In this document: positions 2 through 19,160 of the stretch, one piece after another
How the letters are laid out: each line of letters starts with the position of its first letter
Numbering within the stretch: position 1 is the stretch's first letter
Assembly (NCBI RefSeq): GCF_014646075.1
Contig: NZ_BMMT01000002.1
Span: 124,001 to 188,000, forward strand
Origin: Saccharopolyspora thermophila
Lineage (GTDB): Bacteria; Actinomycetota; Actinomycetes; Mycobacteriales; Pseudonocardiaceae
Reading direction: 5' to 3'
DNA: 64,000 nucleotides
Program-made: the position numbers and the translations under genes
The notes under the pieces: model-generated
Databases searched by the model: none
What the model was told of the DNA's origin: nothing
Seen by the model: only the letters and a program-made list of their open reading frames with translations

Positions 2-1099
2 GCGTCGATGGCCGGCACCACCTCGCAGCCCGCGCTGTCGTCGGTGGTGGCCGCCACCGACCACACCGACCAGGCCACCGGGCTGGACCTGCGGGCGGTG
101 TGCGACCTGGAACCGTACTGGGAGGCGGTGCGCAAGATTTACCAGCCGTTCGAGGCGGGGCTGGCCTCGCCGACCGGCCGGGTCTACACGCACGAGATTC
201 CCGGTGGCCAGCTGTCGAACCTGCGCACCCAGGCCGTGGCGCTCGGCCTCGGCGACAAGTTCGAGGAGATCGAGGCGATGTACGCCGCGGCCGACCGGAT
301 CCTGGGCCGGTTGGTCAAGGTCACCCCGTCGTCGAAGGTGGTCGGCGACCTGGCGCTGCACCTGGTGGGCGCCGGGGTGGACCCGGCCGACTTCGAGGCC
401 GACCCGCGCCGGTTCGACATCCCGGACTCGGTCATCGGCTTCCTGCAGGGCGAGCTGGGCGACCCGCCGGCGGGCTGGCCGGAGCCGTTCCGCACCCGCG
501 CGCTTCAGGGCCGTACCGCGGTCCGCAAGGTGGCGGAGCTGTCCGAAGAGGACCGCGAGGGACTGCGCAGCGACCGCCGCAACACCCTCAACCGGCTGTT
601 GTTCGCCAAGCCCACCAAGGAGTTCACCGAGCACCGCGAGGCGTTCGGCGACACCTCGCTGCTGCGCAGCAAGGACTTCTTCTACGGGCTGCGGCCGGGT
701 GAGGAGTACTCGGTGGACCTGGAGCCGGGCGTGCGGCTGCTCATCGGCCTGGAGGCGATCAGCGAGCCGGACGAGCGTGGCATCCGCACCGTGATGGCCA
801 CGCTGAACGGCCAGCTGCGGCCGATCCAGGTGCGCGACCGCTCGGTGGCGTCGAACCTGCCGGTGGCGGAGAAGGCCGACCGGTCCAATCCGGGCCACGT
901 GCCCGCGCCGTTCGCCGGTGTGGTGACGTTGTCGGTCGGCGAGGGCGACGTCGTGGAGCAGGGGCAGACGATCGCGACCATCGAGGCGATGAAGATGGAG
1001 GCGGCGATCACGGCCCCGCAAAGCGGCCAGGTCAAGCGCGTGGCGATCGGCGGCGTCCAGCAGGTCGAGGGCGGCGACCTGATCATCGAACTCGGTTGA
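2..1099 (+). CDS. pyc: Pyruvate carboxylase, C-terminal part (5' end outside window)
   Basis: Pyruvate carboxylase makes oxaloacetate from pyruvate and bicarbonate using ATP and biotin, an anaplerotic reaction in the cytoplasm. The visible part opens in the carboxyltransferase barrel (M-A-G-T-T-S-Q-P motif) and continues through the conserved carboxylase domain (H-E-I-P-G-G-Q). It ends in a biotinyl domain whose E-A-M-K-M-E motif, about 35 residues from the C-terminus, holds the biotinylated lysine. The frame is open to the left edge, so the start codon lies before the window. A perfect hairpin follows the stop. Pyc is commonly followed by rsmD and coaD in actinobacteria; here about 7 kb of accessory genes separates them. 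Confidence 0.96.
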   Translation, partial: ASMAGTTSQPALSSVVAATDHTDQATGLDLRAVCDLEPYWEAVRKIYQPFEAGLASPTGRVYTHEIPGGQLSNLRTQAVALGLGDKFEEIEAMYAAADRILGRLVKVTPSSKVVGDLALHLVGAGVDPADFEADPRRFDIPDSVIGFLQGELGDPPAGWPEPFRTRALQGRTAVRKVAELSEEDREGLRSDRRNTLNRLLFAKPTKEFTEHREAFGDTSLLRSKDFFYGLRPGEEYSVDLEPGVRLLIGLEAISEPDERGIRTVMATLNGQLRPIQVRDRSVASNLPVAEKADRSNPGHVPAPFAGVVTLSVGEGDVVEQGQTIATIEAMKMEAAITAPQSGQVKRVAIGGVQQVEGGDLIIELG

Positions 1100-1110
1100 C
1101 CCCTGTCCGT

Positions 1111-1145
1111 GAAGCGGGCCGTTCCACAGCGGGACGGCCCGCTTC
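1111..1145 (+). terminator. Hairpin terminator after pyc
   Basis: A perfect 12-bp inverted repeat (arms 1111-1122 and 1134-1145, 11-nt loop) starts 11 nt after the pyc stop. There is no U-tract, as is usual for actinobacterial hairpin terminators. Confidence 0.7.
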
Positions 1146-1284
1146 GCGTGAGCCCCTTCATGGCTCTGGGGTCAACGTCGTTGGGCGTGGTGGCTGGCTT
1201 CGGGGTTTTGGCAACCGGCTGAGGGGGAACGGCGTCCACGAGGTGTCGGCGGATGGTCCGCCATCGAAGGGTGTGGGGGTTGTG

Positions 1285-1815
1285 ATGCGGCGTTGGGTTC
1301 GTGGTTCGCTGGGTGTGCTGTTCGCCTTCGGGTTGGTCGTCGGTGGGGGTGTTGCCTCGGCGCAGGGCGGTTCGGGGGTTCGGGACGTGGACTGGCGGAA
1401 CGCGCAGTACACCGTGCCGCCGGTCGGACCGTGCCCGGAGCAGTTCGTGCCGTTCACCGACGGCGCCGCCGAGGTCGGCAACTGGGTGTACCGGCTCGCG
1501 CCTGACCTGCCGGTCGGGTACGCCGACGTCACCGGGGAGGGCGTGGAGGACGCGCTGCTGTTCGTCGAGTGCGGGCCGCGCAACTCGGAGTACTCGCGGG
1601 CGCTGGTCGGCGTGACGACCGGTTCGGACGCCCGGATCCAGCCGCTGGGCACCGTGGTGAGCCCGCCGGTGTGGACCCAGGTGCCCAACCAGGTGACCGT
1701 GCATGACGGCGACATCGCGGTGCGGATCGAGGACTTCGACACCGGCGCGACCTGGACCGAGCACTACCGGTGGGCGCAGTCCGCCCGGGCGTTCGTGCGC
1801 GTCGACGGGCAGTGA
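1285..1815 (+). CDS. Small secreted protein of unknown function
   Basis: I do not recognise this 176-residue protein. It begins with a basic M-R-R-W-V-R segment and a hydrophobic stretch ending near A-S-A-Q, which reads as a Sec signal peptide cleaved around residue 28. The mature part is acidic with no transmembrane segment, and two cysteines could form a disulfide. Aromatic and beta-prone motifs suggest a small beta-rich extracellular domain. ATG 1285 was chosen because it places the signal peptide at the N-terminus and follows a G-rich ribosome-binding stretch; GTG 1282 is equally possible. A perfect hairpin follows the gene at 1844-1875. Confidence 0.75.
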   Translation: MRRWVRGSLGVLFAFGLVVGGGVASAQGGSGVRDVDWRNAQYTVPPVGPCPEQFVPFTDGAAEVGNWVYRLAPDLPVGYADVTGEGVEDALLFVECGPRNSEYSRALVGVTTGSDARIQPLGTVVSPPVWTQVPNQVTVHDGDIAVRIEDFDTGATWTEHYRWAQSARAFVRVDGQ

Positions 1816-2121: not shown

Positions 2122-3531
2122 ATGGGACGGCTGGGTGTCGCGCTGGCTGCGCTGCTGATCGCGGCGAGCGTCCCGGAAGCGGGAGCGGCGGATCGGGACT
2201 GGCTGGCCCACCGGATGACCACCGGTGGCGACGTCGTGGCGCACCTGGTCGCGCTGGACGCGATCGCCGCCGCCCACGGCGGCACCCGCGCGGTGGGCAC
2301 CCCGGGTTACGACGCCTCGGTGCGCTACGTCACCGACCGGCTCACCGCCGCCGGATACCGGGTCACCTACCAGGACGTGCCCTACCACGGGTTCCGGCCT
2401 GACGTGGAGCGGCTGACCACGCCCGACGGGTCGGCCGTGCGCGTCCTGATGTCCCAGTACGCGCCCTCCACCCCGGAAGGCGGCCTGACCGCACCGCTTG
2501 TCGCGCTGCCCGCCGAGGGCGACGCCACGCCCGGCTGCGAGGCCACCGACTTCCCGACCACGGTACGCGGCGCGGTCGCGCTGGTGCGTACCGGTGGCTG
2601 CACCACCCCGGACAAGGCCCGCGCCGCAGGCGAAGCAGGTGCGGCCGCGCTGCTGCTGCATGACGTCTCGCCCGCTCCGTGGGCGGTCCTGCGGTTACGC
2701 GCGCCGGATTCCGCCATCCCGGTCGGGCACATCACCCAGCTCGCGGCCGAGGACCTCGCCGCGCAGGCGGGGCGGCCGGTCGCGCTGGAACTGTGCGGGC
2801 ACGACGAGGACGGCACGATGGTCAACGTCTTCGCCGAAACCGCCGGTGGGGACCCGCGCCGGGTGGTGATGGCCGGTGCCCACCTGGACAGCGCCTACGA
2901 TGGCCCGGGGATCAACGACAACGGCTCCAGCGCGGCGGCCGTGCTGGAGGCCGCGCTGCGGCTGGCGCCCCACCAGCATGGGGTGCCGAACAAGGTGCGG
3001 TTCGCGTTCTGGGGCGCGGAGGAGCTGATCAACGTCGGCTCCCGGCACTACGTCGACTCGCTGACGCCCGCCCAGATCCAATCCATCGCGCTGTACCTGA
3101 ACTTCGAGATGCTGGCGTCCGGCAACTACGCGCACTTCGTGATGGACGGCGACGACAGCGACCACCCGGACACCGGCGGTCCCGGCGCACCGCCCGGGTC
3201 CGGTGCGGTGGAGGCGGTGCTGACGCAGGGGTACCGCGTCCAGGGCGTGCCGGTGCTCAGCGCCGACTTCACCACGATGCCCTCCGACAGCGAGGCGTTC
3301 ATCGCGGCCGGTGTGCCCTCGGGCGGTGCGCACGGCGGCATCCGCGGCATCAAGACACCACAGGAGGCGGCGCTCTTCGGCGGCACGGCGGGCCAGTTCT
3401 ACGATCCGTGCTACCACCAGCCCTGCGACGACCTAGCCCACCTCAACCGGGACGCGATGCGGCAGAGCGCCCGCGCGGTGGCGTGGGCGGTGGGCCGGTT
3501 CGCGGTCTACGCCGACGACGTCCGGCGTTGA
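2122..3531 (+). CDS. Secreted M28-family aminopeptidase with PA domain
   Basis: This is a 469-residue extracellular zinc aminopeptidase similar in layout to the Streptomyces griseus aminopeptidase type. A signal peptide (residues 1-22, ending A-G-A-A) precedes an N-terminal part that includes a protease-associated domain (roughly 110-220). The catalytic M28 domain shows the zinc-ligand signatures A-H-L-D-S, G-I-N-D-N-G, F-W-G-A-E-E and C-Y-H-Q-P-C. The position usually occupied by an Asp ligand (N-F-D-M) reads N-F-E-M, a conservative change that could alter metal affinity. ATG 2122 is 5-9 nt after a GGGAGG-like site. It is convergent with the P450 (no gap), so it could supply N-terminal trimming for that pathway, which is only an inference. 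Confidence 0.9.
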   Translation: MGRLGVALAALLIAASVPEAGAADRDWLAHRMTTGGDVVAHLVALDAIAAAHGGTRAVGTPGYDASVRYVTDRLTAAGYRVTYQDVPYHGFRPDVERLTTPDGSAVRVLMSQYAPSTPEGGLTAPLVALPAEGDATPGCEATDFPTTVRGAVALVRTGGCTTPDKARAAGEAGAAALLLHDVSPAPWAVLRLRAPDSAIPVGHITQLAAEDLAAQAGRPVALELCGHDEDGTMVNVFAETAGGDPRRVVMAGAHLDSAYDGPGINDNGSSAAAVLEAALRLAPHQHGVPNKVRFAFWGAEELINVGSRHYVDSLTPAQIQSIALYLNFEMLASGNYAHFVMDGDDSDHPDTGGPGAPPGSGAVEAVLTQGYRVQGVPVLSADFTTMPSDSEAFIAAGVPSGGAHGGIRGIKTPQEAALFGGTAGQFYDPCYHQPCDDLAHLNRDAMRQSARAVAWAVGRFAVYADDVRR

Positions 3532-4677
3532 TCAGCCGGCCCGCAGCGGCAGTTCGTCCAGTCCGCGCTGCGTGGCGGTGGGGCGCTGCCGCACCGGTCC
3601 GGCGAGTTCGACGCGGTCGAAGGCGTCGGCCATGGCGTGCAGCAGCACCACGCCGATCCGGTTGGCCAGGTGCCCGCCCAGGCACGAGTGGGCGCCGCGC
3701 CCGTACAGCAGGCTCGGTCCCGCGGCCCGGGTGAGGTCCGGTTCGGCCGGGTCCGGGAAGACCGCCGGATCGTGGTTGGCGGCCCCGAGCATGGCGATCA
3801 CGACGTCACCGCGCCGCAACCGGCGACCGCGCAGTTCCACGTCCGCCAGGCAGAACCGGCTCACCGCCTGCACCACGGGGTCGAGCCGCCCGAGTTCGGC
3901 GACGCCGTCCGCGTCGATCCCGCGCACCTGTGAGGTCTTCAGCGGGCCTCGCCGCACCAGCTGGTGCATCACGTTGCCCAGCATGTTGCTGGTCGAGGAG
4001 TAGCCCGCGTCGAACACGGCCTTCGCCGAGTTCACCAGGTACCGGTGGTCGATCGAGGTGATGTCGGCCAGTCCGGCGAACATCCCGCTCCGCGCGGTGG
4101 AAACCCACCGCGCCACGATGTCGTTGAGGACCTCCCGGGCGGCGAGCGCGGGTTCCCGGCGCCGCGGGTCGAGGCCCGAGTCCATGCCGAGCACCATGGT
4201 CCGCGACGCCTCGCGCAGCGGTCGGTCGTCGTCCGGGTACGGCACCTCGCACAGCAGGCACATCGCCTGCAGCGCAAGCGGTTCGGCCACGTCGTCGACG
4301 AAGTCGAAAGTGCTTGCGCGGCGCAGCAGTTCGTCGGCGATCCGGCGCACCTCGACGGCCCAGCGGTCCAGGTCCCGACCGCGCAACGCGCGCACGAAGT
4401 AGTGCCGCACGGCGGGATGTTCGGGCGGGTCCATGGTCTGCAGGCTGATCACCGAATCCGGGATCGGCAGCCCGAGGGCGCGCGGATCGGAGCCGAAGCA
4501 GGCCGGATCGCGCAGCACCCGCACGCAGTCGTCGTGCCTGGTCAGCACCCAGGAGCGCAGCTGCTCGTGCCAGCGCACCGGGTCGGTGGCCCGCAGCTGC
4601 GCGTAGACCCGGTACGGGTCGGCGAGCATCTCGGGGGACAGCGGGCGGAAGATCTCCCCGGTGGCGGACGCGGTCAT
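3532..4677 (-). CDS. Cytochrome P450, probable peptide cross-linking (biarylitide BytO-type) enzyme
   Basis: This is a soluble 381-residue bacterial P450. The heme-binding loop Y-G-R-G-A-H-S-C-L-G places the thiolate cysteine at about residue 332. The K-helix ExxR is E-L-G-R, and the I-helix carries A-G-Y-S-S-T in place of the usual A-G-x-x-T. ATG 4677 was chosen because GAGGAG lies just upstream and the N-terminus matches the family (L-S-P-E-M-L-A-D-P-Y). Upstream in the same direction, 88 nt away, is an 18-bp ORF encoding MSYIH with a strong ribosome-binding site. A P450 directly behind a pentapeptide M-x-Y-x-H gene is the known minimal biarylitide arrangement, in which the P450 couples the aromatic side chains of the core Y-x-H. 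P450 assignment is certain; the substrate is inferred from context. Confidence 0.95.
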   Translation of the reverse strand: MTASATGEIFRPLSPEMLADPYRVYAQLRATDPVRWHEQLRSWVLTRHDDCVRVLRDPACFGSDPRALGLPIPDSVISLQTMDPPEHPAVRHYFVRALRGRDLDRWAVEVRRIADELLRRASTFDFVDDVAEPLALQAMCLLCEVPYPDDDRPLREASRTMVLGMDSGLDPRRREPALAAREVLNDIVARWVSTARSGMFAGLADITSIDHRYLVNSAKAVFDAGYSSTSNMLGNVMHQLVRRGPLKTSQVRGIDADGVAELGRLDPVVQAVSRFCLADVELRGRRLRRGDVVIAMLGAANHDPAVFPDPAEPDLTRAAGPSLLYGRGAHSCLGGHLANRIGVVLLHAMADAFDRVELAGPVRQRPTATQRGLDELPLRAG

Positions 4678-4765
4678 CTGCGCTCCTCGGCACGACTGGG
4701 TGATCAGCACCTGCCCGCATCGGGGCTGGCAGGCACCGACCGCCGGATCAGTTCCCCGGGTGTTC

Positions 4766-4783
4766 TCAGTGGATGTAGGACAT
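4766..4783 (-). CDS. Pentapeptide RiPP precursor MSYIH (biarylitide-type)
   Basis: ATG (4783-4781), then Ser, Tyr, Ile, His and TGA give a complete 18-bp gene. It is preceded by GGGGAGG (4796-4790) six nucleotides before the ATG, one of the best Shine-Dalgarno sites in the window. The peptide fits M-x-Y-x-H, the pattern of biarylitide precursors such as MRYYH, where a two-residue leader precedes a Tyr-x-His core. The P450 gene starts 88 nt downstream on the same strand, so the two are probably co-transcribed. The same reading frame stays open upstream, but the long version has no start with a comparable binding site and an arginine/proline-rich sequence typical of a non-coding frame. The product would be a cyclic Tyr-Ile-His tripeptide linked through the Tyr and His side chains. 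Confidence 0.78.
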   Translation of the reverse strand: MSYIH

Positions 4784-5060
4784 GGCGGACCTCCCCTCGG
4801 TTTTTCGTACGCGAGTGGTGCATTGGGCCGAACCGGTGGCGTGCTGACGCGCGGGTGGAGATGACCGAATTCGGGTTCGTACCGGCGCGGCACCGTTTTC
4901 CCGGGCGCAACCGCCGAATTCTCTGCCCCCAGCGCGATTCGCCCCGCGTCCGCGCGCAACGCTACTCCGGCGTTCCGCGGTTTTTCCAGCAAGTCGCCCG
5001 GTTGGCGCACATGCGGAGAGAACCGGAATTTCCGTTGGGCAGCCCCGTGTTCGGCGAACG
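4784..5060. other. Leader/promoter region of the pentapeptide-P450 pair
   Basis: This non-coding stretch lies between the dehydratase remnant and the pentapeptide gene. Apart from the ribosome-binding site at 4790-4796 it has several AT-richer patches (around 4799-4806, 4898-4922 and 4978-4986), unusual for this genome and suggestive of promoter or operator sequence for the minus-strand genes. No other gene is apparent. Confidence 0.4.
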
Positions 5061-6015
5061 TCAGTGGATGGCGGGCTCGGGCGCGCCACCCGAACCGGCC
5101 AGGAAGTCGAAGTCGCAGCCCTTGTCGGCCTGCGTGATGTGCCTGCCGAAGAGCTTTCCGTAGCCGCGGGTGAACACCGGCTCCGGCTGCTGCCACTCCG
5201 CGCGCCTGCGTTCCAGTTCCTTCGGCGGGACGTGCAGGTCCAGGCGGCGGTTCGGCACGTCCAGCTCGATCAGGTCACCGTCGCGCACCAGCGCCAGCGG
5301 GCCGCCCGCGAACGACTCGGGCGCGACGTGCAGCACGCAGGTGCCATAGCTGGTGCCGCTCATCCGGGCGTCGGAGATTCGCACCATGTCGGTGACGCCC
5401 TGCTGCAGCAGGCGCCGGGGGATCGGCAGCATGCCCCACTCCGGCATGCCCGGCCGCCCAGCGGTCTCGCGCCGCGCAGCACCAGCACGGTGTTCTCGTC
5501 CACGTCGAGGTCCTCGCACGTCGATGCGCGACTCCAGGTGCTCGTAGCCGTCGAAGACCAGCGCGGGACCGGTGTGCCGCAACAGGTTCGGCTCGCCGCG
5601 GTCGTCTTGATCACGCAACCGTCCGGGGCGAGGCTGCCGCGCAGCACCGCGAGCCCGCCCTCTCGGACAGCGGGTCGTCACGGCGGCGGATGTCCTGCCA
5701 GGCGAGCTCGACGGCCAGCCGCCCGGTGGCCACCGCCAGCTGCGGGTGGTGGGAGAACGCGGCCGGGATCGACGACGCGCCGGGCAGCGTCAGGCCCAGC
5801 GCCTCGGCCGCGGCGGTCATGGTGGAGGCGGTGCCCATCGTCATGCAGTGGCCGGGGGAGCGGGCGATGCCGTCCTCGATCTCGTCCCACTCCCGGTCGC
5901 CGATGACCCCGGCGCGCTTCTGTGCCCAGGTGTCCGAGCCGCTGCCCAGCGTGGTGCCCTTCCAGCGCCCCTTGAGCATCGGTCGGGCGGGCAGGCCGGC
6001 GACACTGAGGTTCGT
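5061..6015 (-). pseudogene. Decayed IlvD/Edd-family dehydratase
   Basis: Pieces of a dihydroxy-acid/sugar-acid dehydratase lie in order but in different frames. Around 5979-5700 are P-M-L-K-G-R-W-K-G, S-P-G-H-C-M-T-M-G-T-A-S-T-M and L-P-G-A-S-S-I-P. Around 5650-5590, in another frame, is L-R-G-S-L-A-P-D-G-C-V-I-K, then V-F-D-G-Y-E-H-L-E-S-R-I-D, D-V-D-E-N-T-V-L-V-L-R-G, and finally G-M-P-E-W-G-M-L-P-I-P through D-A-R-M-S-G-T-S-Y-G-T to the stop at 5061. The N-terminal third with its first iron-sulfur cysteine is missing, and roughly 120-150 residues between L-A-W-Q-D-I-R and D-D-P-L-S-E are deleted. Several frameshifts interrupt the rest. The gene cannot make an active enzyme unless the frameshifts are sequencing errors, which would not explain the deletions. 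Confidence 0.85.
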
Positions 6016-17028: not shown

Positions 17029-17730
17029 GTGGCAGACGGCAACAACGCGCGGGTCCTCGTCGTCGACGACGAGCCGAACATCCTGGAACTGCTCACCGCG
17101 GCCCTGCGGCTCAGCGGTTTCCAGGTGCGCGGTGTCGGCACCGGGTCGGACGCGTTGCGCGCGGCCGAGGAGTTGCGGCCGGACATCGTGGTGCTGGACG
17201 TGATGCTGCCGGACCTCGACGGGTTCGCGGTGGCCAAGCGGCTGCGGGGAGGCGGGAACAACGTGCCGGTGCTGTTCCTGACCGCGCGGGACGCCGTGGA
17301 GGACCGCATCTGCGGCCTGACCGCGGGCGGCGACGACTACGTCACCAAGCCGTTCAGCCTCGACGAGGTGGTGCTGCGGCTGCGCGCCATCCTGCGCCGG
17401 GTGCGGCCGGAGCAGAGCAGCGACGCGAAGCTGCGCTACCACGACCTGGAGCTGGACGAGGACACCTACGAGGTGCGCCGCGCCGGGCGGCTGGTGAACC
17501 TGTCGCCGACGGAGTTCAAGCTGCTGCGGTACCTGCTGATCAACGCCGAGCGGGTGGTCAGCAAGGTGCAGATCCTGGACCGGGTGTGGAACTACGAGTT
17601 CGCCGGTGACAGCCGGATCGTCGAGTCCTACATCAGCTACCTGCGTCGCAAGATCGACTCCACGTTCCCACCGCTGATCCACACCATCCGCGGCGTTGGG
17701 TACGTGCTGCGGCTGCCGCCGGAGGCGTGA
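17029..17730 (+). CDS. OmpR-family response regulator
   Basis: The 233-residue protein has a receiver domain (residues about 8-120) with acidic pocket D-D-E, phospho-acceptor Asp in V-L-D-V-M-L-P-D, the T-A-R-D switch and K-P-F. A winged-helix DNA-binding domain follows (about 135-228: N-L-S-P-T-E-F-K-L-L and I-H-T-I-R-G-V-G-Y-V-L-R). GTG 17029 aligns best with relatives; GTG 17011 is an alternative adding six residues. The stop overlaps the kinase start (ATGA). Its position after the glycosylation genes suggests it controls cell-envelope functions. Confidence 0.93.
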   Translation: MADGNNARVLVVDDEPNILELLTAALRLSGFQVRGVGTGSDALRAAEELRPDIVVLDVMLPDLDGFAVAKRLRGGGNNVPVLFLTARDAVEDRICGLTAGGDDYVTKPFSLDEVVLRLRAILRRVRPEQSSDAKLRYHDLELDEDTYEVRRAGRLVNLSPTEFKLLRYLLINAERVVSKVQILDRVWNYEFAGDSRIVESYISYLRRKIDSTFPPLIHTIRGVGYVLRLPPEA

Positions 17731-19160
17731 TGAGGCTGTTCCGCACGCTGCGGGGGCGGCTGGTGCTCGTGCTGGTGGGGGCCACCGCGGTGGGGCTGCT
17801 GCTGATGGGGTTCACCAGCGTGGCGCTGCTGGACCGGTCGTTGCTGGCCCGGGTCGACGAGCGGCTGGCCGAGATGTCGCGGCCGTGGGCGGAGGGCCGT
17901 CGGCCGCCGCCGATGCCGCCGGATGACGGTCGGCGCGACGACGTGCCCACCGATTTCCGCGTGCTGTTCTTCGACTCCGCGGGGCGCCAGGTCGACATGC
18001 TCGGCCAGTCCGAAGGGGACACCAGCGGCCCGCTGCTGCGCAACCCGCTGCACGGCCCGGCGGTCGGGACGGTGCCCGACCGGGAGGGTGGTTCGGCGTG
18101 GCGGGTGCGCACGGTGCAGCTGCCGGACGGGGACACCATCGCGCTGGCGGTGTCGCTGCACAGCGTGGCGGCCACGGTGCACCAGCTCGTCATGATCGAG
18201 CTGGTGGTGGGCGTGGTCGTGCTGGCGGTGATCGCGACCGCGACGACCGCGGTGGTGCGGTTAAGCCTGCGCCCGCTGACGCGGATCGAGGAGACGGCGG
18301 ACGCGATCGCGGCGGGGGAGTTGCAGCGGCGCGTGCCCGATCCCGATCCACGCACCGAGACCGGTCGGCTCGGCGTCGCGCTGAACACCATGCTCGGGCG
18401 GCTGGTGGACGCGTTGCAGCAGCGGGAGCACTCCGAGCAGCGGCTGCGCCGGTTCGTCGCCGACGCCTCGCACGAGCTGCGGACCCCGCTGACGTCGATC
18501 CGCGGGTTCGCCGAGCTGTACCGGCGCAGCGACCAGCCGCGCGAGGAGGACGTGCGGTTGATGATGTCGCGGATCGAGAGCGAGTCGGTGCGGATGGGGT
18601 CGCTGGTGGAGGACCTGCTGCTGCTGGCCCGGCTGGACCGGGAGCGCACCATCGAGCTGACCGACCTCGACCTGGTGCCGCTGGTGCAGGACGCCGCACA
18701 CGACGCGCGGGCCCGCGACCCGGAGCGCGAGATCACGTTCACCGCGACGGATTCCCCGGTGCGGGTACTGGCCGACAGCGCGCGGCTGCGGCAGGTGGTG
18801 GCCAACCTGGTCGTCAACGCCCTGGTGCACACCAGTCCGGGAACGCCGGTGCACCTGCGCGTCGGGCACGGCGTGATGTCCGCGGCGGTGCTGGCGGCGG
18901 CGGGTGCCGAGCCGCCGCCGGGCACCCCGATGGGCGTGGTGGAGGTGGCCGACAGCGGGCCGGGCATCCCGCCGGGCCACGCGGAGCGGGTGTTCGACCG
19001 GTTCTACCGGGTGGCGGACAGCCGGGACCGGGCGGCGGGCGGCACGGGCCTGGGCCTGGCGATCACGGCGGCCCTGGCGGAGGCGCACAACGGCCGGGTG
19101 GAACTGCTCCGCAACGCGGCGGGCGGCAGCACCTTCCGCCTCCTCGTTCCCCTCTCCTGA
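17730..19160 (+). CDS. Membrane sensor histidine kinase
   Basis: The 476-residue kinase is partner of the preceding regulator. One transmembrane helix lies near residues 10-30, then an extracellular sensor of about 120 residues rich in proline and arginine near its start. A second helix lies near 155-180, followed by a HAMP segment. The HisKA domain has D-A-S-H-E-L-R-T-P-L with the phosphorylated His, and the ATPase domain shows N-L-V-V-N-A-L, D-S-G-P-G-I-P and G-T-G-L-G-L-A-I. ATG 17730 is coupled to the regulator stop. Confidence 0.94.
   Translation: MRLFRTLRGRLVLVLVGATAVGLLLMGFTSVALLDRSLLARVDERLAEMSRPWAEGRRPPPMPPDDGRRDDVPTDFRVLFFDSAGRQVDMLGQSEGDTSGPLLRNPLHGPAVGTVPDREGGSAWRVRTVQLPDGDTIALAVSLHSVAATVHQLVMIELVVGVVVLAVIATATTAVVRLSLRPLTRIEETADAIAAGELQRRVPDPDPRTETGRLGVALNTMLGRLVDALQQREHSEQRLRRFVADASHELRTPLTSIRGFAELYRRSDQPREEDVRLMMSRIESESVRMGSLVEDLLLLARLDRERTIELTDLDLVPLVQDAAHDARARDPEREITFTATDSPVRVLADSARLRQVVANLVVNALVHTSPGTPVHLRVGHGVMSAAVLAAAGAEPPPGTPMGVVEVADSGPGIPPGHAERVFDRFYRVADSRDRAAGGTGLGLAITAALAEAHNGRVELLRNAAGGSTFRLLVPLS

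Follow-up and report, generated by a model that had tools for sequence, protein, structure and literature searches.

A biarylitide-type locus of Saccharopolyspora thermophila with an MSYIH precursor gene, an Asp-type cytochrome P450 and an adjoining M28 aminopeptidase

Results

Organization of the locus

Biarylitides are defined by a five-residue precursor, M-x-Y-x-H/Y, an 18-bp gene encoding it and a P450 within about 500 bp, and 277 clusters of this type were listed in a 2026 paper (PMC13417212). The window, i.e. the whole stretch of 64,000 nucleotides analysed here, carries such an arrangement. Its features are given below in the order in which they are read from the precursor gene.

4790..4796, minus strand: Shine-Dalgarno motif GGGGAGG of the precursor gene (from the sequence; similar motifs in relatives).
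4783-4766, minus strand: precursor gene, bytA-like, 18 nt, encoding MSYIH (from the sequence), with presumed leader Met-Ser and core Tyr-Ile-His; M-x-Y-x-H stands before the P450 in 13 other clade members.
4699..4744, minus strand: stem-loop between the precursor gene and the P450 (score 13; arms of 20 positions with mismatches, 6-nt loop).
4677-3532, minus strand: biarylitide-type cytochrome P450, bytO-like, 381 aa (from the sequence, PDB matches and tree), with Asp223 corresponding to His234 of P450Blt.
2122-3531, plus strand: M28 metallo-aminopeptidase with PA domain, 469 aa (from Pfam, trees and alignment), convergent with the P450, with Glu329 at the position of an Asp zinc ligand.

The precursor gene reads ATG TCC TAC ATC CAC TGA on the minus strand, and six bases separate the end of GGGGAGG from its ATG. 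Its stop codon is followed after 88 nt, well inside 500 bp, by the P450 ATG at 4677. The two genes are in different frames, the distance from 4783 to 4677 being no multiple of 3. The P450 contains YGRGAHSCLG and is complete to its stop codon at 3534-3532. Letters and coordinates agree with the original prediction, in which the two genes were described as a minimal RiPP locus. The pairing of precursor and P450 was correct. The locus is not limited to two genes, as the last base of the M28 gene (3531) abuts the last base of the P450 gene (3532) on the opposite strand.

Beyond the locus lies a pyruvate carboxylase match in one direction; in the other are a broken dehydratase and a HelR/HelD-like protein. 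The dehydratase, a remnant of a dihydroxy-acid/L-arabinonate dehydratase (5061-5979, minus), separates the HelR-like gene from the biarylitide locus, and its two frames cover about positions 152-254 and 399-575 of the 578 in the model. A protein with no Pfam or NCBIfam match is encoded at 1096-1815 (plus); its family (F7) recurs close to the locus in G033 and G399 (L113, L114), with shared flanking genes. No promoter or terminator was detected when 3400-5100 was scanned. When regions of 16-20 kb around 18 loci were compared, the P450 was present in 18 and the M28 in 14 (by ORF clustering) or 15 (by tblastn). No other gene family was found in more than four of the 18, and hence no transporter or tailoring enzyme is proposed.

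The pentapeptide gene in related loci

The MSYIH gene is the sole 18-mer of the form start-x-Tyr-x-His-stop on both strands of the 64-kb window. Across 37 loci fetched around relatives (1,206,290 strand-bases), 28 M-x-Y-x-H 18-mers were found, and no locus had more than one. A Shine-Dalgarno motif is present for all 28 under a loose definition and for 23 under a strict one, and each 18-mer encodes the same pentapeptide that a separate locus analysis had placed by the P450. Nine loci had no M-x-Y-x-H 18-mer. Five of these (L202, L205, L209, L210, L214) have Y-x-Y or H-x-Y precursors, L199 has no such P450, and at L215, L216 and L218 a precursor was not found.

In line with the original prediction, the pentapeptide ORF is present at orthologous loci: an M-x-Y-x-H gene stands directly before the P450 in 14 of 14 members of the clade that includes the window. 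The precursors are MSYIH in the window, MDYPH in ten members, and MYYLH, MFYVH and MYYVH in one each. Among these genes the Pro4 codons vary silently, the stop codons vary and one start codon is GTG.

MSYIH was found in one genome only, and the nearest relatives have MDYPH. The Tyr-Ile-His core had been suggested as one that might not have been described. No MSYIH biarylitide was found in print by word search, supplements being outside its reach, and MSYIH, YIH and Tyr-Ile-His have 0 occurrences each in the main text of PMC13417212. The core is not unique, however, since it is also present in MRYIH of the Blt-type locus L207. A word search for MDYPH, with the motif lists of the 277 clusters (supplements) outside its scope, found no related literature.

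Family and active site of the P450

The ten best distinct PDB sequences matched the window P450 at 237-285 bits and all belong to the same group; the next match was at 114 bits. Identity to the solved enzymes is 40-43% (41.5% to P450Blt and 40.2% to RufO). Of the structures concerned, 8u2m is P450Blt (PMC12951456) and 8spc features in work on the RufO structure (PMC10442852). In an IQ-TREE phylogeny of 48 rows, the biarylitide/RufO family comprised 42 rows with support of 100/100, including P450Blt, RufO and 9jv0. The window P450 is found here, with the biarylitide P450s and not with unrelated families, within a 14-row clade (100/99). The sister of this clade (100/98) is a Val-type clade of 9jv0, L208 (MRYYH) and L125 (MRYVH). 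P450Blt and RufO are placed elsewhere in the family, the latter with 22yx in a separate clade. 9jv0, annotated as no more than a 'putative cytochrome P450', shares 99.7% identity with the L208 enzyme, from which we infer that it is a published YYH- or YFH-type enzyme. A window-type P450 was found at E 1e-40 in 0 of 21 other genomes of the genus. The locus is almost certainly a biarylitide locus, as had been predicted, and in itself it is a new member of a published family.

In P450Blt, His234 steers C-N bond formation, and Val or Leu occupies this position in C-C enzymes (PMC12951456, PMC10929621). Among 40 P450 hits the residue at this position is Asp in 14, His in 13, Gln in 5, Leu in 3, Val in 2, Ala in 2 and Ser in 1. 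Asp is found in all 14 members of the window clade (Asp223 in the window) and in no other of the 40 hits, so that the window enzyme has none of the residues His, Val or Leu of the characterised C-N or C-C subtypes. No mention of Asp at this position was found in the available text of the biarylitide P450 literature. The position of Glu238, the wild-type residue of P450Blt (PMC10929621), is Ser in the window clade and likewise in the Val type. The Asp of the clade P450s could accept a hydrogen bond from His5. Because the Asp branch has the Val type as its sister group and likewise lacks Glu238, we incline towards a C-C link as the product of the Asp-type P450s. The branch may form a different cross-link and be useful for making cyclic peptides.

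At Blt position 74, which belongs to the residue-2 pocket, Lys is present in 10 of 10 MDYPH enzymes and Leu in the window, where residue 2 is Ser. The enzymes whose precursors have an aromatic residue 2 carry Arg, Arg and Lys, and Lys is found in no MR-precursor enzyme. This pocket has been described (PMC12186263), and the pattern is suggestive of enzyme and precursor varying together at this pocket, the window change being one event.

P450s with Gln at the I-helix steering position were seen at L201, L203, L204, L215 and L218, with the precursors MFYDH and MNYRH where these were found. No description of the cross-link of Gln-type P450s was found in the available text of the biarylitide literature.

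A stem-loop follows the pentapeptide gene

The stem score of 13 in the window was reached by none of 40 dinucleotide shuffles. In whole-spacer folding, which was run on 21 loci, the energy in the window is ordinary (z 0.61; 38 of 200 shuffles as low). The claim of a stem rests on the family and not on the window energy. In 32 of 34 byt loci, a stem with a score of at least 11 was present within 110 nt after the pentapeptide stop and began 7-28 nt beyond that stop; the same score was attained in 24 of 850 random segments of these loci. The stem fails at L115 and L201. For the weaker stems, shuffles scoring as high numbered 2 of 40 at L115, 1 of 40 at L123 and 21 of 40 at L201. The arms vary from clade to clade. 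Among the six distinct stems of the M28-bytA-bytO group, both partners are altered at pairs 8, 10 and 12 (C-G/T-G/T-A, C-G/T-A and C-G/G-C); pairs were read by position, MAFFT having misaligned the short hairpins.

The pentapeptide gene is just downstream of the P450 at L212 (MKYWH) and L217 (MRYLH), and the stem-loop is still after the pentapeptide gene. At L213, MRYLH lies 1.3 kb upstream of the P450, an enzyme 92.1% identical to RufO; this control fits the published position of the pentapeptide gene upstream of rufNO (PMC12186263). Here too the stem-loop stays with the pentapeptide gene. Because it follows this gene wherever it is placed, the stem-loop seems to belong to the precursor message. 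Its probable effect is a higher level of precursor message than of P450 message, either by attenuation or by 3' protection. A fold of the same region, beside a terminator, has been shown before in supplementary material on myxarylin (PMC8708641, 2021), and the main text of two newer papers does not mention such a stem-loop. What is added here is its generality across byt loci. A stem-loop after an 18-nt gene provides a further handle for finding genes missed by gene callers.

An M28 aminopeptidase is inherited with the P450

The window M28 matched PF04389 at 130.6 bits (cut-off 21.3) and the PA domain at 53.8 bits, and its N-terminus, judged by eye, resembles a Sec signal peptide. In tblastn searches an M28 adjoined the P450 in 14 of 14 Asp-type, 5 of 13 His-type and 0 of 13 other P450 hits. 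The His-type loci with M28 are L206 (MRYLH), L207 (MRYIH), L210 (MRYIY), L211 (MSYRH) and L128 (MLYDH). The gene order in the 19 loci is M28-bytA-bytO in nine, bytA-bytO-M28 in six and convergent in four.

In 390 genomes of the family, an M28 of more than 450 bits was found in 14, the next best being 364; as four to five candidates were scored per genome, absences in these searches are soft. Thirteen of the 14 are exactly the 13 genomes with an Asp-type P450 (E below 1e-100), and the two genes are always adjacent. In the 14th, G137, neither such a P450 nor an M-x-Y-x-H gene accompanies the M28 in 15 kb.

An M28 tree of 44 rows was built by a quick method, with the 19 byt-linked M28s and the G137 orphan set against 24 others, including paralogues from the same genomes (16 next-best loci and 8 of 30 loci, hand-chosen). 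The byt-linked M28s and the orphan formed one group (SH-aLRT 99). The residue at window position 329 is Glu in 20 of 20 M28s of this byt clade and Asp in all 24 others of the tree; other metal and catalytic positions examined are retained. By alignment, position 329 maps to Asp160 of 1f2o, a zinc ligand (table 1 of PMC7522609). In a set of 60 M28 loci, 58 could be aligned at the ligand position, with Asp in 43 and Glu in 15, of which 14 are from this clade. The 15th Glu is in a remote M28 (L164, 41 bits) outside it. When a byt M28 profile made from 14 of the 19 byt-linked sequences was run on 346 genomes of the phylum, only two matches stood out (734 and 669 bits; next 447), namely the window and the L210 genome, the latter identified earlier. 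Among the 30 M28 loci returned from these genomes, Glu was present in two, and a byt P450 was found in the fetched flanks of those two only.

P450 and M28 distances are correlated (Mantel r 0.96 at 19 loci and 0.91 at the 14 Asp-type loci; 0 of 2000 permutations as high), which owes part to shared descent. In the genome of the window, only one of 16 P450 matches is, by its coordinates, within 10 kb of any of its eight M28 matches. The M28 as a mere housekeeping neighbour was rejected in view of the genome co-occurrence, the single clade, the Glu ligand and the phylum-wide coincidence of Glu with the byt P450. A word search found no literature linking biarylitides with M28. As far as these searches go, the Asp-type P450 branch and its co-inherited Glu-ligand M28 would be new.

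Discussion

Proposed pathway and product

The 18-nt gene encodes MSYIH. From what is known of the family, the P450 would join the side chains of Tyr3 and His5 with loss of 2 H, and a Tyr-His cross-link is, by this analogy, highly probable. The adjacent M28 would then trim Met1 and Ser2 until stopped by the ring, leaving cyclic Tyr-Ile-His. Taken as a whole, a three-gene biarylitide RiPP locus with MSYIH, P450 and trimming by M28 is the probable explanation of the sequence. The computed [M+H]+ values are 430.2085 for cyclic YIH, 472.2191 for its N-acetyl form and 648.281 for cross-linked MSYIH. The published YVH product has m/z 458 (PMC13417212), equal to the computed N-acetyl YVH form (458.2034), and hence the N-acetyl form is plausible to expect.

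Role of the M28

Judging from gene content and alignment, the M28 is rather likely to be a leader peptidase that removes the two-residue leader. Leader removal takes two residues off the N-terminus, for which an aminopeptidase halted by the ring would be suited. In earlier work, a prolyl oligopeptidase from another strain trimmed a myxarylin intermediate in vitro; prolyl oligopeptidase genes were next to several biarylitide-like clusters, the characterised clusters were stated to have no dedicated protease, and a prolyl oligopeptidase was proposed for the step (PMC12951456, 2026). No M28 adjoins the P450 in 8 of 13 His-type loci or in any Val-, Leu- or Gln-type locus examined, so other biarylitides would be trimmed otherwise. 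At L206, where the P450 is 87.3% identical to P450Blt, a Glu-type M28 is next door, and because of it the statement on dedicated proteases may fail for the kin of P450Blt. With an apparently secreted M28 and cytosolic P450s, export is needed; no recurrent exporter was found near byt loci (16-20 kb regions, 18 loci).

The M28 could also be a self-protective copy of the target of the product, with the biarylitides of Asp-type and some His-type loci acting as secreted aminopeptidase inhibitors. Such a copy would accord with the change of the Asp ligand to Glu in 20 of 20 clade M28s, Asp being kept in the same-genome paralogues examined, and with the ordinary M28 paralogues alongside (13 genomes have 8-14 M28 family matches each). 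Inhibitors are also known among cyclic biaryl tripeptides, OF4949 acting on aminopeptidase B and K-13 on angiotensin-converting enzyme (works cited in PMC10929621). However, biarylitide YVH was without antibacterial, antifungal or cytotoxic activity (PMC13417212), and leader trimming likewise calls for an aminopeptidase. Self-protection is an unlikely role. If true, it would give biarylitides, which are without known function, a first biological function, and one that could be read off the gene cluster itself. A peptidase subclass marked by a diagnostic change of zinc ligand, tied to a whole P450 branch and to P450Blt relatives, makes leader removal, the role we favour, and perhaps function, directly testable.

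The P450 reaction and the reality of the precursor

Nitration or another oxidation of the pentapeptide, as carried out by RufO, was rejected as very improbable for the window P450. RufO belongs to the same P450 family and the own genome encodes one nitric oxide synthase match, but that match is on contig C17 and the window on C2, RufO and 22yx form a clade of their own, and Blt positions 169/239 are Val/Ser in the window and Asp/Val in RufO. Neither mark of the rufomycin type, a nitric oxide synthase at the locus or the Asp/Val pair, is found. The synthase match spans 17062-17967 of its contig (369.6 bits).

There is next to no likelihood that MSYIH represents a chance ORF or the end of a longer protein: a longer frame from GTG 5089 to 4766 does end in MSYIH, and at L121 (G130) no stop separates the M28 frame from the GTG-started pentapeptide (...AAVDYPH), precursor and peptidase overlapping in frame, but the start, ribosome site, Tyr3, His5 and stop are kept in 14 of 14 clade loci in three different gene orders, with residues 2 and 4 variable, which rejects a tail, and such ORFs occur at most once per locus over 37 loci, always beside the P450 and with a Shine-Dalgarno motif, with no second one in the window, which rejects chance.

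Comparison with known systems

The locus resembles those of the C-C biarylitides YYH, YFH and YVH (BytO, SavB) in its 18-bp precursor gene beside a P450, in the sister position of the Val-type P450s and in Ser at Blt position 238. It differs from them in Asp in place of Val at Blt 234 and in the M28, which is absent from the two Val-type loci examined (L208, L125). With the C-N linked P450Blt/MRYLH system it shares the M-x-Y-x-H precursor and 41.5% P450 identity, and the near relative of P450Blt at L206 has an adjoining Glu-type M28 as in the window; His234 and Glu238 of P450Blt, however, are Asp and Ser in the window. The RufO pathway, which provides nitrotyrosine for rufomycin, likewise has an 18-bp pentapeptide gene and a P450 of the same family, and the aminopeptidase RufB cuts the peptide afterwards (PMC12186263). 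Unlike that pathway, the window locus is without a nitric oxide synthase and has other active-site residues. Among M28 aminopeptidases, the window enzyme is similar to keratinase KP1 (8ac9, 265.6 bits) and 1cp7 (173.7 bits) and keeps the other metal and catalytic positions; it differs from both in Glu for the Asp160-type zinc ligand and in its genetic link to biarylitide genes.
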